The notes below the pieces were generated by a model. It saw only the letters and a list, made by a program, of their open reading frames with translations, did no database searches and had not been told where the DNA came from. The position numbers and the translations under genes were made by a program. From Leptonema illini DSM 21528 (lineage in GTDB: Bacteria > Spirochaetota > Leptospiria > Leptospirales > Leptonemataceae): DNA of 64,000 bases. Below, piece by piece: positions 6,964 to 19,710 of the stretch (position 1 is the stretch's first letter; every line of letters begins with the position of its first letter). The stretch is from positions 1,323,989-1,387,988 of the forward strand of contig NZ_JH597773.1 of assembly GCF_000243335.1 (NCBI RefSeq). The letters are read 5' to 3'.

Positions 6964-6976
6964 AGACAGAAGGAGA

Positions 6977-7211
6977 TTCAAACCCTTTTTTCCACGAAAA
7001 ACACGAACAGCGCGAAAGAAATCCCCTGCTGATAACTTCCAATCCGACACTTTATTTTTCCATCACTTGATAAGGCTTTATAAAGACCGGCAAAATTCTG
7101 TATTCGATGTTCGCGTCGTTCGTGTTTTTCGTGGAGATTAGATTCTTCAAAGGAGTAGCAGTCTTCTGTCGCATGGAGTGGAACGCAGCTCGCGGAAGAG
7201 TGACACCGGAC
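6977..7211. repeat. Dispersed repeat, copy 1 of a tandem pair
   Basis: Two-part unit. 6991-7135 begins TCCACGAAAAACACGAAC and ends with its near reverse complement (TTCGTGTTTTTCGTGGA), giving a 145-base element with inverted ends. A tail of about 75 bases follows, starting TTCAAAGGAGTAGCAG. Copy 2 lies 294 bases downstream and is nearly identical in the first part and clearly similar in the tail. The open frames through it encode only the repeat's VRVFRG-type translation and are not genes. With copy 2 it fills most of the non-coding stretch between 6891 and the intron. Confidence 0.85.
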
Positions 7212-7269: not shown

Positions 7270-7505
7270 ATTCAAACCCATTTTTCCACGAAAAACACGA
7301 ACAGCGCGAAAGAAATCCCCTGCTGATAACCTCCAATCCGACACTTTATTTTTCCATCACTTGATAAGGCTTTATAAAGACCGGCAAAATTCTGTATTCG
7401 ATGTTCGCGTCTTTCGTGATTTTCGTGGACATTAAACTCTTCAATGGAGTAGCAGACTCCTGTACCAGCGAGTGGAACTCAGTTCGCACAAGAATGATAC
7501 CCGAC
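7270..7505. repeat. Dispersed repeat, copy 2 of a tandem pair
   Basis: Second copy of the 6977-7211 unit. The core 7285-7429 has the same inverted ends (TCCACGAAAAACACGAAC, closing TTTTCGTGGA) and only a handful of differences from copy 1. The tail after 7430 has diverged more (TTCAATGGAGTAGCAG at the start). The copy ends about 45 bases before the group II intron. Elements with the same ends but a different interior occur at 60651 and 60931. Confidence 0.85.
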
Positions 7506-7548: not shown

Positions 7549-9486
<1,938 letters not shown>

Positions 9487-9629
9487 TGGTAAAATTCTTT
9501 CTTCGATCCTGAAGGTAACGATGCGGCTCGCAGCAGCGTGCATGGCTGACATACGGCGACCTCCAGGGCTCCTCACCCGAACGCGATAAAACGATTGCAG
9601 GCTGATAATCCTCCGGCCGTTCTGACGCT

Positions 9630-12600
9630 ATGATCCGGGAGCTGCTTTCTGCCGAGTCCATTGTCCTGGATCTGCCGCTTGCTCCACTTACGGCCATCGA
9701 GCGACTGACCGAAAGACTGATCCAAAGGCAGGCCGGGAAGCGGCTCGATTCCGATGATCAGAGATCGTCCCTTCGACAAGCGTTATCAACTAACATCGTG
9801 CAGACGCTTCTCGCATCGCTGGATCGCCCCGGAGGAACGGGCGACCGAGCCTATTTTCCGCATGCTGCCATTCCGGGGATTCGGTCTCCGCGACTGATGA
9901 TCGGGCGACTCAGTCCGCGCGCAGGGCAGGACGATGCGGGCGATTGCAGATTCATGGCGCTTTTGCTTGTTCCCGAAGAAGATCCGGAGCGCATGCTTCT
10001 TCTGCTTGAAAGGCTGGCCGCTCTGATTCCTGCTCTTGTTCCCGAGCTGAGTCGCATGCGCAGTGCAGATGCGATTCTGCAACGGTTAATCAGCGCCGAG
10101 GCGGAGGCAAGAGGCCCGACATATTTCAATATGACCGATGCCGATCTGGCCGCCGAACTGGTAACAGACCGGCTACGCGGGCTGAGCGAAGGAGAGGCCC
10201 GGCGTCGCCTTCAGCGCTATGGCCGCAACGTTCTCAGGCCGCCCGCTCGCACGCCGCTGTGGATGCGCCTTATCCGCAATTTTTTCAGCTTCTTTGCGCT
10301 GCTTCTGTGGGCGGCCGGCATCCTCTGTTTTATTCCCGGCGTCGATATGCCCCAGCTCGGATGGGCCATTCTTGTCGTCATCGTGATCAACGGTATCTTT
10401 TCCTTCTTGCAGGAGACGAGAGCCGATCGCGCCGTAGAAACCCTGCAGCGTCTGTTAACGCGTAAGGCGCTCGTTCTAAGAGACGGCGAAGAGCGAGAGG
10501 TTGATGCTGAGTTGATCGTTCCGGGCGACATTGTTCTGCTTGAAGAAGGGGATGCCGTTCCCGCCGATGCCAGGTTGATAGAAGCCTCGGGAATCGAGGT
10601 GAATAACTCCTCGCTTACGGGAGAATCCGCATCTGTAAAACGATACAAATCCGATCGCCCCGTCCTTATCGATAAGCCGTTTCTATGGATAGAGATGCCA
10701 AACGTACTGTTCGCCGGCTCTTCGTTGATTAAAGGTCGGGGCCGGGCGATCGTTATCGGAACAGGCATGAATACCGAGATCGGTCGTATCGCCGGTATGA
10801 CGCAGTCCATTCGCGGCGAAGATACTCCTTTACAGAAGCAGCTGCGCGAAACGGTGGCGACGATCACTTTGCTTGCAGCTCTATTCGGCGCGGTCTTTCT
10901 TCTGCTCGGCTGGCAGATGGCCGGCCTTACGTTTATTCAGGCCTTTATCTTCTGTATCGGTCTGTTTGTCGCAAACGTTCCGGAGGGTCTATTGCCGACG
11001 GTGACGCTGGCGCTCGCCCTTGGAGTGCAGCGTATGGCAAAGCGCAATGCCATCGTGAAAAACCTTTCCTCCGTAGAAACGCTCGGATGCACGACCGTGA
11101 TATGCACCGATAAAACAGGGACGTTAACCGAGAACGTGATGTCGGTGGTGGAGGTTTATGCCGCCGGCGAGATCTTTGAGGTCGAAGGAAGCGGGTATGC
11201 TCCGATCGGTCGCTTCTTACAGGATGGTGGCGAGATTCCCGTCGCCCGGCTGCACGAAAATCTGGCATTCAAAGAACTGAGTCGGTGCGCCCGACTGTGT
11301 AATAACGCCCGCCTTGTCCGGAACGCCTCGGGTGACGATCGGCAAGAATGGCATCTGTCGGGTGATCCGACCGAAGGAGCGCTGCTCTGCCTCAGCATGA
11401 AGGCTGGAATCGAAGCGCAAAACGATCGAATTCATCTTTTTCCATTTGAGTCCGTTCGCAAGCGCATGAGCGTCGTCGTGCAAACGGAGCAGGGCCCTAC
11501 CGTTTATGCAAAAGGAGCTCCTCTTGAGCTGCTTGCCCGCTGCGCGCACATACAGTCCGCCAGCGGTGTCGTTCCACTTGAGACGACGCATGTCGAGCAG
11601 ATCCGTTCAATAAACGATCGCTGGGCGCAGCGCGGTCTGCGTGTTCTGGCTCTTGCATGTAGAGTGGATGGGCCGGGAGCCGAATACACCGAAGAGAGCG
11701 CCGAATCCGGTCTTGTATTCCTCGGACTGACGGCCATGCAGGATCCGCTGCGTCGTGAGGTACCCGATGCGATTCGTGCCTGTCATGAGGCGGGCATTCG
11801 TATCGTGATGATCACCGGTGATTATGCAGGCACGGCGCGAAGCATCGGCCTCCAGGCCGGCATGAGGTTGCCCGACGATCAACCCGTTTATTCGGGGACA
11901 GAGATCGGCGAACTTGAAGAGGAGCGTCTGCGCGATCTCTTACGGCAGTCGGATCGCGTTTTTGCGAGGGTTAGTCCCGAGCAGAAGTTGCGCATCGTCT
12001 CCTGCCTGCGCGATCTTGGCGAAATCGTCGCCGTCACCGGAGACGGTGTGAACGACGCCCCCGCCTTGAAGAAGGCGCATATCGGTATCGCTATGGGCGG
12101 TCGGGGCAGCGATGTAGCGCGAGAGGCGGCGCATATGGTGCTTGCCGACGACAACTTCAGCACGATCGTGCATGCAATCGAAGAGGGTCGGGCGATTTTC
12201 CGAAATATTCGCCGCTTTATCGCCTACGTGCTGAACTCCAATCCACAGGAGATGATTCCTTACATTCTCTGGATGCTTTTTCCAGGAACTCCTCTGGCTA
12301 TGACCGTAATGGGCGTGCTGGCCATCGACGTGGGCACGGATCTTGTGCCTGCTATGGGCCTCGGCATCGAACCGCCTGAAAAGAATGTAATGAAGCAACC
12401 TCCGCGCAGTCGATCCGAAAAGATGCTCAGTCTGCCGATGGTTCTGAAAAGCTATTTCATAAGAGGAAGCATCTTAACGATCGGCTGTTATATCACGTAT
12501 CTTTTCTTCGGATGGATCGAGGGTTATGCGCGTGATTCTTCGAATCTGCTTTCCCTGCTGAAGGCCATGCCGGCCTCTCCGGCTAACCTTGAAATGAGGG

Positions 12601-13067
12601 ACGCCTCTCAGCCATATCTTATGAGTCTGAGCGCCTTCTTTCTCGGCACCGTCTTCACGCAGATTGCTAACGTGCTGTGCAAGCGATCAAACGAATCGCT
12701 TTTCAGCCGAGATTTTCTCTCAGAGGAAAGGCGTGCAAGAGCTTTAAAGAGTCTGAGGCATGGCCGTTTTCGTACCGGGCTCAGACTTGAGATGAGATTG
12801 CGGGCAATCACATCGGCCTTTTTGGGGCGGCACTGGTTTGTTATGAATCTGGTTTCCAATCCGCTGATAACGGTCGGTATTGCCTTCGAGATTCTCTTCG
12901 CGCTTATCGTAATCTATTCGCCTTTGAATCGTCTTTACTATTTCGCCCCCGTCGGATGGCCTGTTTTCCTCGCAGCCCTTAGCGGGCCGGTGCTGCTTCT
13001 TGCCTTTGAAGAGACACGCAAATACCTCCTGCGCCGCGGCAGGAGGTATTCATTGCTTGAAGAGTAA
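9630..13067 (+). CDS. P-type cation ATPase (IIC, Na,K-ATPase-like) with an N-terminal PTS EIIA-like domain
   Basis: 1145 aa. Residues about 1-155 resemble a PTS EIIA type-2/PtsN domain: LSAESIVLDL, a presumed phospho-acceptor His78 in YFPHAAIPG, then MALLLVPEEDPERMLLLLERL. From about residue 170 a complete P-type ATPase follows: N-terminal cation domain, SSLTGESASVKR actuator loop, VPEGLLPTVTLALA in M4, phosphorylation motif CTDKTGTLTEN (Asp494), GDPTEGALL, GDGVNDAPALKKAHIG hinge, and a C-terminal membrane part with IDVGTDLVPAMGLGIEPPE. PEGLL and the GTDLVPA block are typical of Na,K-ATPase-like pumps, so monovalent cation transport is more likely than Ca2+. The start is the only good in-frame ATG after an in-frame stop at 9603. 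The ribosome site is poor, and the gene begins 144 bases after the intron. Confidence 0.88.
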   Translation: MIRELLSAESIVLDLPLAPLTAIERLTERLIQRQAGKRLDSDDQRSSLRQALSTNIVQTLLASLDRPGGTGDRAYFPHAAIPGIRSPRLMIGRLSPRAGQDDAGDCRFMALLLVPEEDPERMLLLLERLAALIPALVPELSRMRSADAILQRLISAEAEARGPTYFNMTDADLAAELVTDRLRGLSEGEARRRLQRYGRNVLRPPARTPLWMRLIRNFFSFFALLLWAAGILCFIPGVDMPQLGWAILVVIVINGIFSFLQETRADRAVETLQRLLTRKALVLRDGEEREVDAELIVPGDIVLLEEGDAVPADARLIEASGIEVNNSSLTGESASVKRYKSDRPVLIDKPFLWIEMPNVLFAGSSLIKGRGRAIVIGTGMNTEIGRIAGMTQSIRGEDTPLQKQLRETVATITLLAALFGAVFLLLGWQMAGLTFIQAFIFCIGLFVANVPEGLLPTVTLALALGVQRMAKRNAIVKNLSSVETLGCTTVICTDKTGTLTENVMSVVEVYAAGEIFEVEGSGYAPIGRFLQDGGEIPVARLHENLAFKELSRCARLCNNARLVRNASGDDRQEWHLSGDPTEGALLCLSMKAGIEAQNDRIHLFPFESVRKRMSVVVQTEQGPTVYAKGAPLELLARCAHIQSASGVVPLETTHVEQIRSINDRWAQRGLRVLALACRVDGPGAEYTEESAESGLVFLGLTAMQDPLRREVPDAIRACHEAGIRIVMITGDYAGTARSIGLQAGMRLPDDQPVYSGTEIGELEEERLRDLLRQSDRVFARVSPEQKLRIVSCLRDLGEIVAVTGDGVNDAPALKKAHIGIAMGGRGSDVAREAAHMVLADDNFSTIVHAIEEGRAIFRNIRRFIAYVLNSNPQEMIPYILWMLFPGTPLAMTVMGVLAIDVGTDLVPAMGLGIEPPEKNVMKQPPRSRSEKMLSLPMVLKSYFIRGSILTIGCYITYLFFGWIEGYARDSSNLLSLLKAMPASPANLEMRDASQPYLMSLSAFFLGTVFTQIANVLCKRSNESLFSRDFLSEERRARALKSLRHGRFRTGLRLEMRLRAITSAFLGRHWFVMNLVSNPLITVGIAFEILFALIVIYSPLNRLYYFAPVGWPVFLAALSGPVLLLAFEETRKYLLRRGRRYSLLEE
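13021..13050. other. Perfect 12-bp inverted repeat inside the end of the ATPase gene
   Basis: AATACCTCCTGC, a 6-base centre GCCGCG, then GCAGGAGGTATT. It lies within the last codons of the P-type ATPase. No T-run follows, so it is not a classic terminator. It could be an mRNA 3' stabiliser or a bidirectional stop between the convergent ATPase and ilvD genes. Confidence 0.6.
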
Positions 13068-18110: not shown

Positions 18111-18898
18111 GTCGCGTTTGCGTATCGGGCTCGGCAGGCCGGATGGGCCGCGCCATTGTTTCTTTGCTCAAAGAAGAAGGCGTTGAGTTAGGGGCAGCCC
18201 TTGAATACGAAGGGCATGCTCTGCTCGGTACCGATGCCGGAGTCCTTGCCGGCGTCGATGCCATAGGCCTGGCGCTGACCGCCGATGCAGTCGCTGCCGT
18301 CGCAGCATCCGATGTGGTGATCGATTTCAGCGCGCCGGCGAATACGATGCGCCTGCTCGACCTCTGTATCAAGGCAAAAAAAGGCCTTGTCATCGGAACG
18401 ACCGGCCTTTCAGACGAGCAGAAGACCACTATTCTCAAGGCCGGCGCTTCGATTCCCGTATTGCTTTCGCCGAATATGGCCGTCGGCGTGAACGCCCTTT
18501 TTGCCCTTGTCGAACAGGCGGCAAAGATGATGCGCGACGGCTTCGACGTTGAGATATCTGAGATCCATCATCATTTCAAGAAGGATGCTCCGTCGGGCAC
18601 GGCCGTGCGTCTGAAAGATATCGTGCGCGATGCTCATGCAACGGATGAGTCGCAGATCGTTTACGGCCGCGAAGGCATCGTCGGGGAGCGTCAGACCGGT
18701 GAGATCGGCGTGCATGCGCTTCGCGGAGGCGACGTCGTCGGCGAGCATACGGTGTATTTTTTCGCCGACGGTGAGCGTATCGAGTTGACGCATCGCGCCA
18801 CATCGCGCATCATCTTCGCCCGGGGAGCTCTTCGCGCCGCGAAGTTCCTCTCAGGCAAGCCGCCCGGTTCTTATAACATGATGGATGTACTTCGGTAA
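18107..18898 (+). CDS. dapB: 4-hydroxy-tetrahydrodipicolinate reductase
   Basis: 263 aa. NAD(P)H-dependent second step after DapA. It has the N-terminal dinucleotide-binding motif [32 protein letters not shown], and the catalytic block [15 protein letters not shown] (His154 and Lys158). It overlaps dapA by four bases and its stop shares one base with the cdaA start, so the genes are almost certainly co-translated. Confidence 0.96.
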
Positions 18899-19710
18899 TG
18901 CTGTCAGATGTATGGAAAATGGAGAGCATCTTTCCCGCCGTCGCACCTTTCACCAAGGTGGTCGACATACTGCTTGTTGCTTACGTTTTCTATCGCATCT
19001 ACATCCTGCTTTCTCGCACACGGGCCATCCAGCTTTTAATCGGCTTTGCCCTGATCATCGCCGTCGATATTCTGTCGCGCAAATTCAATCTTGAAACGCT
19101 TTCGTGGATCATTACAAACGTTTCCACATACCTCGTTTTCGGTATTATCGTTCTTTTGCAGCCCGAGCTGCGTCGCCTGATCAGCGATATCGGCAAGATG
19201 CAGCTCTTTCAGTGGGTGAACCCGCCGAAGGCCTATTATATCGACGAGATCGTCATCGCCGCGCAGAACATGGCGCACGATCGTGTCGGCTCGCTGATGT
19301 GCATCTTGAAAGAGATCAAGCCTCAGCAGATCATCGATTCGGCCGTGCGGCTTGATGCGAACATCACGCATGAGCTGCTTGAAACGATCTTCTTCAAGGA
19401 TAGCCCGCTGCATGACGGCGCCGTCATCATCGAATCGAATAGAATCCTCGCTGCTTCCTGCTATCTGCCGCTTTCCGGAGCGCGCGATCTGAAAAAGACG
19501 ATGGGCGCCCGACACAGAGCGGGCATGGGATTCTCTGAGGAAAGCGACGCCGTCATTATCGTCACCTCTGAAGAGACGGGAAAGATTTCCGTCATGTATA
19601 ACGGTCGCATGATATCGCCCGTGAAAACGAAGGATCTCAGATCGACGATCCAGGAATGCATCGCCGATCGCTCGGGGCGTCCGAAGCCTCCTGAAGAGGG
19701 AGAAGAATAA
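18898..19710 (+). CDS. cdaA: Diadenylate cyclase CdaA (c-di-AMP synthase)
   Basis: 270 aa. Three N-terminal membrane helices (residues about 22-90) precede a DAC/DisA_N domain with the DGA motif at 173-175 (LHDGAVII) and RHR at 205-207 (GARHRAGMGFSEESDA). It makes cyclic di-AMP from two ATP; in other bacteria this controls potassium and osmolyte uptake and wall stress. It sits in dapA-dapB-cdaA-cdaR-acpS with one-base overlaps on both sides. The usual glmM partner is absent here. Production coupled to wall-precursor synthesis is an inference from the operon. Confidence 0.95.
   Translation: MLSDVWKMESIFPAVAPFTKVVDILLVAYVFYRIYILLSRTRAIQLLIGFALIIAVDILSRKFNLETLSWIITNVSTYLVFGIIVLLQPELRRLISDIGKMQLFQWVNPPKAYYIDEIVIAAQNMAHDRVGSLMCILKEIKPQQIIDSAVRLDANITHELLETIFFKDSPLHDGAVIIESNRILAASCYLPLSGARDLKKTMGARHRAGMGFSEESDAVIIVTSEETGKISVMYNGRMISPVKTKDLRSTIQECIADRSGRPKPPEEGEE

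Follow-up and report, generated by a model that had tools for sequence, protein, structure and literature searches.

Organization of the locus

The window, a 64,000-nucleotide stretch of the Leptonema illini genome, contains a forward-strand gene whose uninterrupted frame starts with ATG and encodes a protein of 1145 residues. The protein is sequentially composed of an EIIA-like domain, a short linker, and a P-type ATPase (Table 1). The two parts form one polypeptide, with the EIIA domain at the N terminus of the pump, and this arrangement is conserved across species. The fusion that the first-pass annotation of the window had read from the sequence is thereby confirmed. The linker is poorly defined in the predicted structures, with pLDDT values below 50 at residues 161–163 of the full-length model and at residues 163–167 of the domain model.

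Table 1. Coordinates of the fusion gene and its parts within the window.
Feature	Position	Strand	Remarks
Fusion gene	9630..13067	+	EIIA-Ntr-like domain and type-IIC (Na,K-ATPase-like) P-type ATPase, 1145 aa; orthologous fusions in 7 further genomes
EIIA-Ntr-like domain, residues 1-160	9630..10109	+	AlphaFold2 model, PDB matches, match of profile to PtsN structures, PF00359 in 5/8 orthologues
His78 codon (CAT), equivalent of the PtsN phospho-acceptor His	9861..9863	+	Invariant in 9/9 fused domains; aligns with PtsN PH
Linker joining the EIIA domain to the pump, residues 161-167	10110..10130	+	Low model confidence
P-type ATPase body, residues 168-1145	10131..13064	+	PF00690, PF00122, PF13246, PF00702, PF00689
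Glu452 of M4 motif VANVPEGLL (ion site)	10983..10985	+	Stretch shared unchanged with Na,K-ATPase alpha-3
Asp494 of DKTGTLT (catalytic aspartyl-phosphate site)	11109..11111	+	Sequence
M5-M6 ion-site residues Ser870, Asn871, Glu874, Asp900, Asp904	12237..12341	+	Na,K-ATPase pattern SNxxE / DxGTD

No promoter- or terminator-like sites were found at positions 9300–9700. A group II intron (Rfam RF02005, RF00029) occupies positions 7586–9486 of the forward strand and ends about 144 bases before the start of the fusion gene. Its reverse transcriptase/maturase lies at 8014–9378 (PF00078, GIIM). Just 5' of the intron is a 236-base direct repeat, the copies of which (6976–7211 and 7270–7505) are 91% identical. 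A diadenylate cyclase gene (DAC, CdaA_N) is located at 18898–19710 (+), about 6 kb downstream of the fusion and not adjacent to it. The dinucleotide c-di-AMP is a messenger of K+ homeostasis.

The N-terminal domain

An AlphaFold2 model of residues 1–167 has a pLDDT of 84.4 and a pTM of 0.80. Its top matches are PtsN chains, both by Foldseek and by VIA-align. The VIA-align superpositions on PtsN have Z-scores of 15.0, 14.6, and 14.0 and cover 136–138 residues at 2.8–2.9 Å, the best of them (Z 15.0) spanning 138 residues at 2.8 Å. The structure matches also include the N-terminal domains of SLC4 transporters, among them BTR1 (Z 12.8) and band 3 (Z about 10); the literature describes an EIIA-like fold for these domains (PMC4664831).

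The sequence relationship is weaker for the single copy than for the family. The search against PF00359 proposed in the first-pass annotation succeeded only in part: residues 1–165 of the window copy stay below the cut-off (17.2 bits against 27, E 0.005), but five of the eight orthologous N-termini match, with a best E-value of 5.4e-11. The same residues of the window copy weakly match TIGR01419 (PtsN) with an E-value of 0.0044. A profile built from the eight orthologous domains retrieves Neisseria and Burkholderia PtsN structures from the PDB with E-values of 7e-10 to 5e-8, and in these alignments the conserved PH of the fused domains falls on the PtsN PH. Residues 1 to about 160 are predicted to adopt an EIIA-2 / EIIA-Ntr-like fold, and the EIIA-like N terminus of the first-pass annotation stands on the PtsN matches of the model.

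Chance similarity, which the single-sequence E-value of about 0.005 might suggest, is ruled out by the orthologue profiles, the fold, and the conservation of the histidine.

Conservation of the active site

The comparison covered nine orthologous fused domains: eight belong to genes whose frames run uninterrupted to the end of the gene or of the contig, and the ninth belongs to a decayed copy. The eight-member alignment spans 22–50% identity to the domain of the window, and only seven of the 124 ungapped columns are invariant across the nine domains (M1, E4, I11, H78, P115, L126, and E157). His78, the phospho-acceptor histidine of the (I/V)PH motif, is thus kept in all nine. Of the two outcomes that the first-pass annotation had named as refuting, a fold unlike EIIA and loss of the histidine in orthologues, neither occurred. 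The codon of His78 is CAT in five of the domains and CAC in four, so conservation is seen at the level of the residue and not of the DNA.

The surroundings of the histidine are less well preserved. The loop arginine and a second histidine belong to the active site of EIIA proteins. The ordinary PtsN proteins encoded by genomes of the window's class invariably carry the Arg-Glu pair of the RExSM(S/T)TG loop and the second active-site histidine. In the fused domains, by contrast, the aligned arginine column reads S/S/S/S/A/A/V/K/S and holds arginine in none, although this reading depends on the alignment, as the loop is shortened and an arginine lies nearby in some members. The second histidine is kept in two of the nine. 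The fused domain has lost the RExSM(S/T)TG loop, and most members also lack the second histidine; it is therefore a diverged EIIA and not an ordinary PtsN. The EIIA-Ntr pattern first assigned to it holds for the fold and the phospho-acceptor histidine and fails for the loop and mostly for the second histidine.

Judged by these alignments, the domain has retained its phospho-acceptor, whereas most of the active site around it is gone. Phospho-transfer to the domain could be slow or absent, because its members retain neither the canonical arginine at its column nor the STGIG loop, and few of them have the second histidine. The conservation of His78 supports a role in phosphorylation and leaves room for a phosphorylation-independent one.

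The P-type ATPase body

Residues 168–1030 match all of the Pfam cation-ATPase domains listed in Table 1 above their cut-offs, and the pump is complete, with the DKTGT, TGES, and GDGVND motifs all present. The best-scoring NCBIfam model is TIGR01106 (Na,H/K antiporter alpha subunit), at 565.9 bits and below its cut-off of 946.1 bits. Among solved structures, human Na,K-ATPase alpha-3 is the best sequence match (E 1.7e-148). In the alignment to alpha-3, VANVPEGLL in M4, SNxxE in M5, and DxGTD in M6 reproduce the Na,K-ATPase ligand pattern. The full-length model has a pTM of 0.67; ordered by E-value, its Foldseek matches begin with Na,K- and H,K-ATPases, while SERCA structures reach equal or higher TM-scores.

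These features identify the pump as a type-IIC, Na,K-ATPase-like enzyme in which the cation ligands of M4–M6 (E, S-N-E, and D-D) are present. The description of the pump in the first-pass annotation as Na,K-ATPase-like agrees with both the best match and the retained ion-site residues. From this pattern we infer that the pump moves monovalent cations of the Na+/K+ type. TrkH, the K+ system searched for, was found in only two of the eight carrier genomes, which would fit a K+-uptake role of the pump in the remaining carriers.

Distribution and origin of the fusion

A profile of residues 1–330 was run over 393 Spirochaetota genomes. Full-length matches to the fusion occur in eight of them and score 472–509 bits. 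The next-best pumps score at most 159 bits, and most of these start at profile positions 135–165, so that the EIIA domain is missing from them. In a few, the match extends back to positions 101–131, in some of these only across stop codons. Every scored pump match beyond the fused set in these genomes is without an EIIA domain. All carriers belong to the class of the window, and a profile of the N-terminal domain run over the 48 genomes of that class recovers the same set. The survey of how widespread the fusion is, suggested at the outset, therefore gives a narrow answer for the sampled Spirochaetota: one clade in one class, plus a decayed copy.

An assembly or frame-joining artefact is ruled out, since the identical domain order occurs in one frame in seven genomes besides that of the window. 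The ninth copy (L027:6389-9352) comes from a Leptospiraceae genome with 7% contamination (G217). Its EIIA frame is intact and ends in the linker, the region before MNSEIGQ is missing, and there is a further frame break; the copy is decayed or misassembled.

When a maximum-likelihood tree was built from the pump bodies without the EIIA domain, the eight fused pumps fell into one clade with support of 100/100. The clade spans at least two families, and its sister group consists of three unfused pumps from the class of the window, whose M4 and M6 likewise show the IIC-type pattern. Under the simplest history consistent with this tree, the EIIA domain would have been joined once to a IIC pump that already existed.

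A comparison of gene neighbours in five carriers showed shared neighbourhoods only between close relatives. In two genomes of one genus, a channel with Ion_trans and cNMP_binding domains adjoins the fused pump (L021:11693-13072 and L022:6648-8156). Outside Spirochaetota, the profile was applied to plasmids, where 674 records match parts of residues 1–330 and none covers 80% of them. An exact-peptide scan of genome contigs returned one distant pump only (Marininema, 32% identity) and is uninformative on the spread of the fusion.

Phosphorelay components in the carrier genomes

Genes for HPr, EI, and HPr kinase are present in all eight carriers, so a donor for His78 exists. The search for EI and HPr genes recommended in the first-pass annotation thus found both in the Leptonema genome, together with HPr kinase. 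Leptonema HPr keeps its HARPA and KSIMG sites, EI keeps its GGPSGH site, and the HPr and HPr kinase genes are adjacent. One ordinary PtsN is encoded in Leptonema by a separate gene (L030:9268-9843; PF00359, E 1e-25). PF02378, the EIIC permease family searched for, was detected in none of the eight carriers, and for this reason their PTS appears to be regulatory. A regulatory PTS without sugar permeases has been reported for the related Leptospira interrogans (PMC2405797).

Relation to known systems

The fused domain shares with PtsN / EIIA-Ntr (PF00359, TIGR01419) its fold, length, and PH phospho-acceptor motif, as well as its best PDB matches. It differs in being covalently attached to a pump and in the active-site losses described above, and the window copy falls below the Pfam cut-off. 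The pump resembles the alpha subunits of Na,K- and H,K-ATPases over its whole body, including DKTGTLT and the M4–M6 ion residues of Na,K-ATPase, but it is bacterial, carries the extra N-terminal domain, and does not reach the TIGR01106 cut-off.

Several other transporters carry EIIA-type domains. The lactose/galactose transporter LacS likewise has an EIIA-type domain fused to it and is modulated by HPr, but its domain is of the EIIA-Glc type and the transporter is a secondary sugar carrier rather than an ion pump. EIIA-Glc belongs to a different fold family from EIIA-Ntr. Closer in phylogeny are Na+/H+ exchangers with PF00359 in two other Spirochaetota genomes (L007:88-1845 in G379 and L013:67-1812 in G170), in which an EIIA-2 domain is also fused to a monovalent-cation transporter. 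These are secondary transporters in which the domain is C-terminal and above the Pfam cut-off, and they represent a separate fusion. The SLC4 anion exchangers, including band 3, have an EIIA-like fold as the N-terminal cytosolic domain of an ion transporter; however, they are eukaryotic, have another transporter fold, and operate in host cells without a PTS.

EIIA-transporter fusions were thus already known. The attachment to a P-type ATPase is the new part as far as the open-access literature is concerned, in which searches turned up no description of such a fusion.

Genomes of another spirochete family have a standalone EIIA gene near the gene for subunit D of a V/A-type ATP synthase (L012:1498-3079 and L011:1489-3058). 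The gene between the two in L012 encodes a universal stress protein; L016, L017, and L019 show a comparable arrangement.

Proposed mechanism and alternatives

We propose that the N-terminal part is a regulatory domain that the PTS phosphorylates and that is tethered to a pump for monovalent cations, with a probability of roughly 0.6. The coupling of PTS state to ion transport that the first-pass annotation envisaged is thus partly supported. The phosphorylation of His78, the direction of its effect, the docking on the actuator, and the transported ions are what we infer in this proposal. The chain from EI to HPr would phosphorylate His78, with HPr kinase as a second input. PF00690 follows the linker immediately, from residue 168 on, and the phosphate state may alter the packing of the EIIA domain on the adjoining actuator region and set pump activity in this way. 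The ion gradient would thus be governed by PEP supply and by the state of HPr, in a tethered version of the action of free PtsN on TrkA, KdpD, and YcgO. Free PtsN regulates K+ transporters by its phosphorylation state and, when unphosphorylated, binds these three proteins in E. coli (PMC13104625; PMC11808508). In LacS, the fused EIIA domain is phosphorylated by HPr (PMC10710835).

Two alternatives concern the role of the domain. The EIIA fold may be used without phosphorylation, as a docking, oligomerizing, or ligand-sensing platform in the manner of the SLC4 N-terminal domains, with His78 kept for structure or binding. The SLC4 domains are indeed the closest structures beyond PtsN and other EIIA proteins, and most catalytic neighbours of His78 are lost. 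Against this, His78 has remained invariant across nine divergent domains in which most other PtsN-invariant positions have drifted, and every carrier has EI and HPr; we regard a phosphorylation-free role as unlikely. Alternatively, the domain may accept phosphate from the PTS but have an output other than the pump; as a PtsN paralogue held at the membrane by the pump, it would bind other partners or act as a drain on HPr~P. A second acceptor could be specialized in this way, given that Leptonema has its ordinary PtsN as a separate gene. Yet the fusion has been kept as one frame throughout its multi-family clade, and the differing neighbourhoods of the carriers suggest no other partner, which makes an anchoring role highly improbable.

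A further alternative retains the regulation and changes the ion. If the pump were a Ca2+ or H+ transporter, the fusion would control calcium or proton traffic. SERCA-, PMR1-, and PMCA-type models also score high on the full protein, the equivalog cut-off is reached for no type, and the SERCA TM-scores noted above point the same way. On the other hand, Na,K-ATPase is the best sequence match (E 2e-148), and VANVPEGLL, SNxxE, and DxGTD fit its pattern, whereas most other fetched pumps have NLxTD or similar in M6. A calcium or proton pump is accordingly rather improbable, and a Na+/K+-type pump is the preferred assignment.

Biological significance

The tethered, PTS-phosphorylated pump that we favour suggests that the energy-source signal of the cell sets pump activity directly. 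A fuller version of this proposal, to which we give an even chance, is that a P-type ATPase is under phosphohistidine control: a PEP-driven relay with no detected PF02378 EIIC output would act in cis on a Na+/K+-type pump, and PEP and HPr status would set the gradient without transcription or a free regulator.

Evidence from E. coli on EIIA-Ntr and K+ transport has led to discrepant models (PMC13104625), and the fusion would offer a simple in-cis system for testing EIIA-Ntr control of K+ transport. It would also be a bacterial counterpart to SLC4 transporters, for which the role of the EIIA-like N-terminal domain has been posed as a key question (PMC4664831). For the carriers themselves, the fusion suggests an output for a PTS without a detectable EIIC permease. 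If the proposal is true, a primary pump of the Na,K-ATPase type would be directly under the control of the PTS phosphorelay.
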